This document shows, piece by piece, positions 26,430 to 28,232 of a stretch of 64,000 nucleotides of DNA; within the stretch, counting starts at the first letter, position 1, and the number at the start of each line of letters is the position of its first letter. Source of the stretch: Arthrobacter sp. StoSoilB5 (GTDB taxonomy: Bacteria > Actinomycetota > Actinomycetes > Actinomycetales > Micrococcaceae). The notes beneath the pieces are model-generated. The model was not told the DNA's origin. It saw nothing but the letters and a program-made list of their open reading frames with translations, and did not search any database. A program made the translations under genes and the position numbers. The DNA lies in the NCBI RefSeq assembly GCF_019977235.1, contig NZ_AP024646.1:4960001-5024000 (forward strand), read 5' to 3'.

Positions 26430-26445
26430 GTTACATTAATGTGAC
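26430..26445. promoter_or_regulatory. Near-palindrome upstream of the c-di-AMP riboswitch
   Basis: GTTACATTAATGTGAC is a 16-bp palindrome with one mismatch. It can also be read as direct repeats GTTAC and GTGAC 11 bp apart, one helical turn. MtrA response regulators in actinobacteria bind GTNAC-type direct repeats near cell-wall hydrolase genes, so MtrA is one candidate. This is inference from pattern alone. Confidence 0.45.
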
Positions 26446-26499
26446 TTTAGTTTGCTGCTCATGTACCGTCGAAGAGCGACCCGTATCTCCGCTGGGCCG

Positions 26500-26675
26500 C
26501 TTCCGGGTTGACGCCGAGCTCTGCCGCAAACCGGAATCCGCCAGACTCGCGGCAGAGACGGGGGACCCAGAGTTCCCGGGCCTGATTCTCCATGGGCCCT
26601 TGGGGTGAAGCCGCCATGTGCGGCCGGACGGCCTCGTCCGAACCCGACAGCTAACCTCGCAGGCGTTGAGAGGCA
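26500..26675 (+). ncRNA. c-di-AMP riboswitch (ydaO/yuaA leader)
   Basis: The leader contains the hallmark conserved blocks of the ydaO/yuaA class in order: CCGGAATCCGCC, CGGCAGAGACGGGGGACCCA, CTTGGGGTGAAG, CCGAACCCGACAGCTAACCT and CGCAGGCG. These blocks define the two three-way junctions that bind two c-di-AMP molecules. The downstream coding start is at 26682, and the 3' edge with GAGAGG overlaps the likely ribosome binding site, so control of translation as well as transcription is possible. In actinobacteria this class usually precedes cell-wall hydrolases or resuscitation factors. The exact ends are approximate. Confidence 0.93.
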
Positions 26676-26681
26676 ACCACC

Positions 26682-27953
26682 ATGTCCCCAACCATGGATC
26701 AGCCGCGCCGCGCCCAAATAGCGCGCGAGCGTACCCAGCCAACCGGACGCCGTCGGGCCCAACCCAGCGGATCCTCCACCAGTGCGCCAGCAGCAGAAGC
26801 AGCGTCAACAAGCACGACGCCGGAACCCACCGCTGCTTCTAATCCCACCACCGCGGCACCCACTACGCGCGCGGCCGCTCGCGCCGCAGAGCGTGAGCGG
26901 GCAGCCCAGGCGGTCATCGCTCTTGCTGAAACAACGCCCGCGGACTCTGCTCCGTTGGAACCGGCAACGGCTGCGATTCCAACTGTTCAAGCTCCCGCAC
27001 CGATCGCCCCCGAACCGGCTTCCACTCCGGAGCCCACCACTGCCGCCATACCGACGGTGGATGCCGCTTCATCCACTCCGGAGCCCGCCACTGCCGCCAT
27101 ACCGACGGTGGCCGCTGCTTCACCGATGCCCTCTGCATCCCCGGCACAGGCGAAGAGCCCCGCCCAGCTGGCGGCAGCCGCCACCGCTGCGGCTGGCCTC
27201 GCAAGCCGGAAGGCCCTCCGCACGCGAGCAGCCCAGCCCTCGGCAGGCGGTGCCCCTACGTTCGGAGCTTCATCCTTGGGCGGGTCATCAGTGGGTGGAT
27301 CGTCCTTCAGCCACGAACCACACGCCGTCCTCACAAAGGCGGCCTCGGTCAAGACAATGGGCCAGCGCATGGCAGTCGTCGCCGGAGCTTTGGGCTTGGT
27401 ATTGACCGTTGGCACCGTGAGCCAGGCCTTCGAGCTTCCCTTCTTCGGGCAGGAAACACCGGCCCAGGAAGCCAGTGACGCAAAGACCGGTGGCGACAGC
27501 AGGCAGTCAACCTCGGCCACCCCCGCACCCAGCTCGTCCAACTCCACTGCTGCTTCGGCGGCCACCAGCGAGGCCGGACAGCCGGCAACTGTTGCAACGC
27601 AGTCGTCAGAAGAGGCACCCGCTCAGGGATCGCCGTCGTCCCTTCCGACTCCGCAAGTTTCACTCGCGGATCCTGTTTGGGTTCCTTCGGCAGTCCCGTC
27701 GGCTGTTGTTCCTGTGCCGGGCGTGACAACTCCTGTCCCAACCCAGCCAGCCCCGAGCCCGGTTCCGTCGGACACGGTTACCACCCCACCTGCCACGACG
27801 ACGCCGACCCCCACTGTCACTCCGGCGCCTACTCCAACACAGGCTCCGGCGCCAAAGCCAAAGCCGACCGGCAGTCCCAGCACCACGCCGTCCAATGGTT
27901 CAGCCCTGGACCTGGACGCCGTACTTGACGGCGCCACAGGGATTTTGAAGTGA
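26682..27953 (+). CDS. Ala/Pro/Thr-rich single-pass membrane protein under c-di-AMP riboswitch
   Basis: The 423-residue protein has a long low-complexity cytoplasmic part with a duplicated PEPTTAAIPTV / PEPATAAIPTV segment near residues 110-140. One membrane helix follows (MAVVAGALGLVLTVGTVSQA near residues 228-247), then a Ser/Thr/Pro-rich outer part typical of a cell-wall spanning linker, and a short end LDAVLDGATGILK. The N-terminal layout resembles actinobacterial NlpC/P60 or Rpf proteins controlled by the same riboswitch, but no hydrolase domain, catalytic Cys-His or transglycosylase motif is present. It may be a truncated descendant or a structural wall protein. Start at 26682; ATG 26694 is an alternative. 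Confidence 0.75.
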   Translation: MSPTMDQPRRAQIARERTQPTGRRRAQPSGSSTSAPAAEAASTSTTPEPTAASNPTTAAPTTRAAARAAERERAAQAVIALAETTPADSAPLEPATAAIPTVQAPAPIAPEPASTPEPTTAAIPTVDAASSTPEPATAAIPTVAAASPMPSASPAQAKSPAQLAAAATAAAGLASRKALRTRAAQPSAGGAPTFGASSLGGSSVGGSSFSHEPHAVLTKAASVKTMGQRMAVVAGALGLVLTVGTVSQAFELPFFGQETPAQEASDAKTGGDSRQSTSATPAPSSSNSTAASAATSEAGQPATVATQSSEEAPAQGSPSSLPTPQVSLADPVWVPSAVPSAVVPVPGVTTPVPTQPAPSPVPSDTVTTPPATTTPTPTVTPAPTPTQAPAPKPKPTGSPSTTPSNGSALDLDAVLDGATGILK

Positions 27954-28078
27954 GCACGCGACTTCCCAGGACCAGCACGCACGTCGGGTGGCACGGCCGG
28001 TACTGCAGCAGCAGCCGGACGGCCACGTTCCGCCGCCGGTTGGGCCGCTGGAGTTGCCAGCGGTTGCGGCGCGCCTAA
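27950..28078 (+). CDS. Possible 42-residue basic peptide overlapping the upstream stop
   Basis: A GTG at 27950 overlaps the stop of the previous gene as GTGA, a classical translational-coupling arrangement, and opens a 42-codon frame. The peptide is rich in arginine (about one quarter of residues) and has three cysteine-containing positions. It ends before a terminator at 28112. I know of no family. It may equally be chance in GC-rich DNA. Confidence 0.25.
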   Translation: MSTRLPRTSTHVGWHGRYCSSSRTATFRRRLGRWSCQRLRRA

Positions 28079-28111
28079 GGAATCAGGGCAACAAGAATCA
28101 CTGCAACAAGA

Positions 28112-28147
28112 GAGGCAGGCACCTACCCGGTGCCTGCTTCTTTCGTT
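28112..28147 (+). terminator. Rho-independent terminator after the riboswitch-controlled gene
   Basis: GCAGGCACC at 28115-28123 and GGTGCCTGC at 28129-28137 form a 9-bp stem with a TACCC loop, followed by TTCTTTCGTT. It ends the transcript that starts with the c-di-AMP riboswitch. The 28148-28232 stretch beyond it holds no gene that I can see. Confidence 0.85.
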
Positions 28148-28232
28148 CCGCGTGTCACTTGCATGTGACAAGAGTGCCAGAGGGGCGTCGACCCCGAGTG
28201 CGGCACTCGGCGACCCAGCCGCCCGGAACGCG

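Follow-up and report, generated by a model that had tools for sequence, protein, structure and literature searches.

We think it fairly likely that the locus described here is an operon of two genes under the control of c-di-AMP, and that its main product, a membrane-to-wall protein without enzymatic activity, descends from a probable wall enzyme. The locus occupies positions 26430-28147 of a 64,000-nt stretch of DNA from Arthrobacter sp. StoSoilB5 (assembly GCF_019977235.1, contig NZ_AP024646.1, positions 4,960,001-5,024,000, forward strand), hereafter the window, and its features are collected in Table 1. Pfam identifies an ATP-dependent DNA ligase, a PucR-type regulator and an alanine dehydrogenase as neighbours. 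The latter two are present in 25 of 26 named records from Arthrobacter and Paenarthrobacter and the ligase in 18 of 26; L099, on a contig of 6.4 kb, has neither the regulator nor the dehydrogenase beside it. No description of the window gene was found among the open-access papers listed for c-di-AMP riboswitches in Arthrobacter and Paenarthrobacter. It is conserved without a hydrolase domain, though the riboswitch-linked genes read in this analysis are mostly hydrolases, and a new small gene came along with it. If our reading is true, the locus would offer a testable case of an enzyme that became a structural or signalling partner while control by the second messenger was retained.

Table 1. 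Features of the locus, with positions in the 64,000-nt window.
Feature	Position	Strand	Evidence or remark
Candidate MtrA box, GTTACATTAATGTGAC	26430..26445	+	GTTAC and GTGAC around ATTAAT; two GTnAC repeats with a period of 11 bp; the aptamer follows about 99 nt downstream
c-di-AMP riboswitch aptamer (RF00379, ydaO/yuaA)	26529..26679	+	75.6 bits, gathering score 38, E 9.5e-16
GCCUC, 3'-hairpin loop, putative anti-Shine-Dalgarno strand	26631..26635	+	Loop/tail covariation
GAGAGG, Shine-Dalgarno sequence	26668..26673	+	GAGGC at 26670-26674 complementary to the GCCUC loop
Large gene: 423-aa single-pass membrane protein, no hydrolase domain	26682..27953 (stop 27951-27953)	+	Transmembrane-block pN/pS 0.16 (20 sequences) and 0.18 (9)
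Conserved helix around RAAARAAERERAAQA, residues 63-83	26868..26930	+	pN/pS 0.20 and 0.14 over 13 codons
T-A-A-I-P-T-V, three copies (Thr 96, 120, 137), candidate Ser/Thr-kinase sites	26967..27110	+	Motif counts against shuffles
Transmembrane segment, about residues 230-250	27369..27431	+	Homologous to the signal segment of the riboswitch-linked AggPromo-domain protein
C-terminal LDLDAVLDGATGILK, residues 409-423	27906..27950	+	L415 and A418 invariant in 23 sequences; modelled helix 411-422
42-aa gene, WHxRxC...RxxRWxC	27950..28078 (frame 27950-28075, stop 28076-28078)	+	Purifying selection; profile matches
Terminator-like hairpin, intrinsic type	28106..28146 (about)	+	-27.5 kcal/mol, z -5.7; equalled by none of 200 shuffles

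The riboswitch and the upstream box

The leader had been read in an earlier note on this DNA as a c-di-AMP riboswitch of the ydaO/yuaA class, and this was borne out by the RF00379 covariance model. The match covers the full model (1-134) and is the sole Rfam match above the gathering score within the window. RF00379 has five matches in the genome, with that of the window scoring best. The four remaining matches precede the genes of an M23 peptidase (L002, PF01551), of the AggPromo-domain protein L003 (NF052397) and of two proteins of the NlpC/P60 type, L004 and L005 (PF00877; 26.4 bits for L005 against a cut-off of 23). A diadenylate-cyclase domain is also present in the genome. Nearly all ydaO-preceded genes of Actinobacteria appear to be cell-wall related, according to the consulted part of PMC9960051. 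The aptamer lies directly upstream in all 29 fetched relatives of the window gene and in all eight members of a third clade of cousins described below.

The loop/3'-tail pseudoknot of RF00379 is found in the window switch as GCCUC/GAGGC. We assessed this pairing over 29 representatives of 63 sequences, with the window family reduced to one. The score for each loop with its own tail averaged 14.93, as against 13.33 (sd 0.38) with swapped partners. Among 5000 permutations, which ignore kinship, none reached the observed score, none the duplex energy and seven the paired length. This covariation fits loop/tail pairing in either ligand state. The ATG of the large gene begins two bases behind the aptamer model, a distance of 1-4 nt across the window family.

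Two known systems may be set beside this arrangement. For the nlpC switch of C. glutamicum, the passages of PMC9960051 drawn on here report decreased reporter output at unchanged transcript and put forward a CTCC/GGAG pairing as an idea. The window switch has in common with such ydaO/yuaA switches an aptamer above the cut-off, loop/tail complementarity and a Shine-Dalgarno sequence in the 3' tail, but it precedes a non-hydrolase protein and a coupled 42-aa gene. The sequence of the crystallised ydaO RNA given in PMC5393176, the consulted part of which also mentions its pseudoknot, carries CUCCUUCG and CGAAGGAG at places that by our reading match loop and tail; in the window switch the 3' pseudoknot strand is the Shine-Dalgarno sequence itself. 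Because of the covarying GCCUC/Shine-Dalgarno pairing and the C. glutamicum precedent, the window riboswitch is probably a translational OFF switch, with the effect of the ligand taken over by analogy from nlpC. The aptamer would fold and, with c-di-AMP bound, the GCCUC loop would pair with the GAGGC of the Shine-Dalgarno sequence, so that translation of the large gene is blocked. The block would then be passed on to the 42-aa gene via the GTGA overlap of the two genes. If our reading is true, the locus would also add a comparative argument for the ways in which such switches can act on translation.

The box upstream of the aptamer agrees with the motif given for MtrA in the consulted parts of PMC6265350 and PMC11215152, namely two GTnAC-type repeats with a 4-bp spacer between 7-bp units. 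One MtrA scored above the cut-off in the genome. Counting the strict form (GTnAC-N6-GTnAC) and a loose form separately, we found the former before 18 of the 30 aptamers of the window family and the latter before all 30. At the other riboswitches of the same genome the strict box precedes L003, L004 and L005 and the loose form L002, and all 12 aptamers of L100-L110 are preceded by a box. Such a box is not universal, since among 29 loci sampled across the family (L036-L064) the strict form precedes two, L043 and the family member L044, and the loose form is also absent before six. The Dietzia paper, as far as consulted, gives a different, TCG-rich motif (PMC9599347). The conserved box fits the MtrA motif as a candidate site, and transcription would probably start at a promoter with this MtrA-type box. 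A consensus scan listed no sigma-70-type promoter, and it listed the stem of the terminator-like hairpin on the minus strand only. Directly behind the terminator, a second GTnAC-type palindrome, GTCACTTGCATGTGAC, is present at 28154-28169; the closest relative, L007, shows none within 260 nt downstream of its gene.

Selection on the RNA likely extends into the large gene. Codons 2-30 (26685-26771) are nearly frozen at synonymous sites, with pS of 0.10 and 0.11 compared with 0.57 and 0.36 in the membrane block. The freeze is strongest at codons 2-7 and about 20-26 and is seen in both clades. This pattern points to an RNA-level role over some 90 nt of the coding sequence. An anti-aptamer pairing of codons 23-25 (GUCGGG) with the aptamer core (CCCGAC) was considered and rejected, as no enrichment was found in 32 other riboswitch genes: their mean longest complement was 5.03 in the first 150 nt vs 4.94 and 5.29 further on. 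None of the pairings tried accounts for the freeze.

The two genes

The large gene encodes, as the earlier note had it, a membrane protein with Ala/Pro-rich sides and no hydrolase domain. A single hydrophobic segment separates an Ala/Pro-rich N-terminal half (229 aa, 19 K+R) from a Pro/Ser/Thr-rich C-terminal half (168 aa; 19% Pro, 30% Ser/Thr). The protein gave no Pfam or NCBIfam match at E<=1 and thus neither an NlpC/P60 nor an M23 domain, whereas three other proteins of the riboswitch regulon (L002, L004 and L005) do match one of these Pfam domains. In the structure prediction, which the note had recommended, the AlphaFold2 model has a mean pLDDT of 51, i.e. the protein is predicted to be mostly disordered, and it places helices at residues 63-83, 160-173, 229-243 and 411-422, with a mean pLDDT of 75-76 over the helical residues 61-80.

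We surveyed 150 genomes of the genus, own genome included. The 423-aa protein was matched in 44 of them at E<=1e-3. A profile of the 56-residue membrane block matched 34 genomes at E<=3.0e-29 and a further eight, which make up the third clade, at E-values from 1.2e-24 to 3.4e-18; the two of the 44 outside both sets are G128, with an AggPromo-type protein, and G029, where the match lies within a 1144-aa frame. From the 34 genomes, 29 relatives besides the own copy were taken as loci. All 30 copies have intact frames, with the 29 relatives spanning 341-482 aa, and their alignment contains no frame that continues into a hydrolase (Pfam was run on the window protein alone). The note's alternative of a frameshifted hydrolase was therefore dropped, and a frameshift or sequencing error in the window genome is ruled out by these 30 intact frames of similar length. 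The C-terminal LDLDAVLDGATGILK piece is missing from L035. In L096 (Arthrobacter sp. Hiyo8) the large gene has another C-terminus and the small gene is absent, reflecting either a recent break or an assembly error.

The large gene had been described as the only sizeable one before the terminator. A second, small gene had been missed there, as had the MtrA-like box, the pairing of the loop with the Shine-Dalgarno sequence and the cousins that retain a vestigial domain. Its GTG start (ATG or TTG in other genomes) overlaps the stop of the large gene as GTGA. The 42-aa gene is under purifying selection as judged from pN/pS, which is 0.18 (19 sequences) and 0.31 (8) in its frame vs 0.98-2.27 in the other two; these values come from 27 of 30 rows, L017, L029 and L035 being omitted for length or absence. 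A small-gene profile matched 33 of the 150 genomes at E<=1e-8. All 33 are among the 34 genomes with the large gene and all matches fall within 100 bases of it, G122 being the genome with the large gene alone. Nine more genomes matched at only E 0.001-0.01, which we take as chance, and in the named set 25 of 26 records have the small gene. The protein has nine invariant columns (R7, W14, H15, R17, C19, R30, W34, C36 and R41), no Pfam or NCBIfam family and no PDB match by sequence; its model (mean pLDDT 64) suggests a helix and two strands. Among plasmid records the small gene was found in one, from Arthrobacter: in Arthrobacter sp. StoSoilB13 it lies at NZ_AP024648.1:355065-355187, a 1.35-Mb record filed under plasmids, with 92.7% identity.

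Probable descent of the large gene and competing explanations

The profile of the membrane block (A3) also matched an AggPromo paralogue in the same genome, L003, at G000:C1:782377-782517 with E 2.1e-6; the aptamer of L003 is at G000:C1:782598-782755. Sixteen genomes matched this profile only via other proteins. Weaker matches that were read, in G111 and in G005, G128 and G146 of these sixteen, proved to be full AggPromo-type genes behind an aptamer, confirmed by NF052397 for G111, G128 and G146; in some of the remaining genomes among the sixteen the match (E about 5e-4) lies in a frame of 477-487 aa. NF052397 scored 121.3 bits with L003 and 110.9 with the full protein of G111. Pfam assigns no family to L003, and a PDB search with its sequence gave one low-complexity match at E 0.97. 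We take AggPromo proteins to be lysozyme-like enzymes. L003 has the MtrA-like box, the aptamer and the membrane block in common with the window locus, but unlike the window protein it retains the whole domain and is without the long cytoplasmic half.

Intermediates are provided by the third clade, i.e. L100-L107 from eight genomes with a riboswitch-linked relative, seven of them complete. Like the window family, these proteins have the aptamer, the long N-terminal half and the ELPFFGxE block (seven of eight; L104 reads ELRFFGEE). Unlike the window family, five of the seven complete members carry a vestigial AggPromo domain, and in none of the clade did the small-gene profile find anything at E<=0.01. 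L100, L101, L102, L104 and L105 end in this shortened domain, from which 33 central residues are missing. The stretch SSGAYGIVQSLP is deleted in all five, and WEKESNW is changed to WDTxxKW in four copies and to WNSEENW in L100, which retains one Glu, the second of WEKES. The altered stretch (SSGAYGIVQSLP, WEKESNW) presumably resembles the SLT lysozyme-like signature. With NF052397 the vestigial copies fall below the cut-off of 40 (L100 31.0, L101 30.1, L104 29.0 and L105 32.7 bits), and neither L107 nor the window protein gave a match. L103 and L107 have lost the domain, and L106 is cut by a contig end. G111 has a tandem pair made up of one reduced and one full member, both preceded by an aptamer of their own; no coupled small gene was found behind the full member of L100 or behind L108-L110.

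Trees were built on chosen representatives (40 and 26 rows). In the leader tree, the window family, the third clade and the AggPromo leaders of the genus group at 94/98, apart from NlpC and M23 leaders. The AggPromo-type leaders L054 and L062 from other genera (115.8 and 119.0 bits) fall outside this group, and the tree carries a long-branch warning. The protein tree of the 56-residue block is poorly resolved, with the window family as one clade (98/99) and the full member of L100 within the third clade. The fork uniting the third clade with AggPromo leaders to the exclusion of the window family has weak support (81/85); given this and the low resolution of the protein tree, either one or two domain losses would fit. 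The leader and the signal/transmembrane segment held in common with the AggPromo protein, together with the intermediates, argue that the window protein descends from a riboswitch-linked protein with an AggPromo domain: the gene would have been duplicated, a disordered cytoplasmic half would have grown and the domain would have been lost, after which the remainder was maintained. The Glu retained in L100, the two AggPromo leaders outside the group and the lack of any recognisable piece of the domain in the window family weigh against this descent. Hence the window protein probably lost its domain in evolution, and the cousins seem to record this loss step by step. The earlier note had offered a lost hydrolase or a new type of envelope protein as alternatives; the evidence suggests both, one after the other, the enzymatic nature of the ancestor being our assumption.

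The same observations bear on other explanations. An unrelated disordered membrane protein could have been captured behind a copied riboswitch, taking over only the AggPromo leader, start and signal segment. This would suit the fact that these three parts alone are in common and that no piece of the AggPromo domain is recognisable in the window family, but it leaves the third clade, with its long N-terminal half, ELPFFGxE block and vestigial domains, without a place, and we consider such convergence distinctly unlikely. Nor do we give much weight to a decaying gene in which the remainder drifts after domain loss and the riboswitch is a relic. Lengths do change rapidly (341-482 aa), the halves are of low complexity and L096 has another C-terminus and no small gene. 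Against this stand the 30 intact frames, the low pN/pS of the membrane block (0.16-0.18), the aptamer retained in 29 of 29 relatives and the purifying selection on the small gene of the operon, which together render decay highly improbable.

Another explanation concerns the membrane segment, which might be a signal peptide that is cleaved off and has an exceptionally long n-region. The protein would then be a plain secreted wall protein whose Pro/Thr-rich half is released to act as an adhesin or spacer in the wall. Homology links the segment to that of a riboswitch-linked protein which is presumably exported, the composition of the outer half would suit such a role, and [SG]-Q-A at the segment end would permit cleavage by signal peptidase I. 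However, 229 residues with a conserved helix and Thr motifs in front of the segment would be useless in a signal peptide, and the ANAA stretch of L003 is absent from the window family. We judge this explanation unlikely, and retain descent from an AggPromo-domain protein to a membrane-anchored one as the preferred reading.

Threonine motifs and a possible function

The motif T-x-[AS]-I-P occurs in 82 copies in the 30 proteins, is present in every one of them and is never found behind the transmembrane segment. Shuffled sequences gave a mean of 0.95 and a maximum of 5 copies, with the reservation that tandem duplication would also inflate the real count. A Glu stands at -3 in 55 of the 82 copies. 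As a coding pattern, E-P-x-T-A-A-I-P was found at three places in the genome, all in the window gene, and not at all in the reversed control. The looser T-x-A-I-P-x-V showed no enrichment, with seven places (three in the window gene) vs eight in the reversed control; of the four outside it, one falls close to the C-terminal end of a 511-aa frame, and the others are in frames of 81-171 aa that are perhaps not genes. Kinase sites favour hydrophobic residues at +3 and +5, and two PASTA PknB-type kinases scored above the cut-off in the genome. According to the consulted part of PMC5845002, the loss of phosphorylation seen in M. tuberculosis upon inhibition of PknA/PknB is associated with the motifs Glu-X-X-Thr(P) and Thr(P)-X-Pro; the window motif matches Glu-X-X-Thr and not Thr(P)-X-Pro. 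The T-A-A-I-P repeats are thus candidate kinase sites.

From here we infer, as the weakest step of our reading, that the window protein may be a non-enzymatic adaptor between cytoplasmic kinase/FHA signalling and the wall. The cytoplasmic Thr motifs would receive phosphate from a PASTA kinase or be recognised by an FHA protein, the Pro/Thr-rich outer half would reach into the wall, and the adaptor would be made alongside the hydrolases of the regulon at low c-di-AMP. In its fullest form, a former wall-enzyme gene would now encode a disordered, bitopic phospho-adaptor under the control of c-di-AMP and MtrA. As many as four Thr motifs of the kinase/FHA type would lie on its inner side and a tail spanning the wall on its outer side, and with its Cys-containing 42-aa partner it would link PASTA-kinase signalling to the regulon hydrolases. 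We regard this full version as doubtful.

Elsewhere in the family, an RF00379 aptamer precedes a 416-aa Pro/Ser-rich protein with one apparent transmembrane segment and no Pfam or NCBIfam family (L053:432-1880, in G183, a genome of another genus with nine RF00379 matches). Like the window protein, it is aptamer-led, apparently single-pass, Pro/Ser-rich and without a family; by eye, the two sequences are not related, and L053 is probably an independent non-hydrolase target of the riboswitch. Many riboswitch-linked exported proteins of the family (L002-L064) carry a GRRRA or GRHRA motif near the N-terminus.
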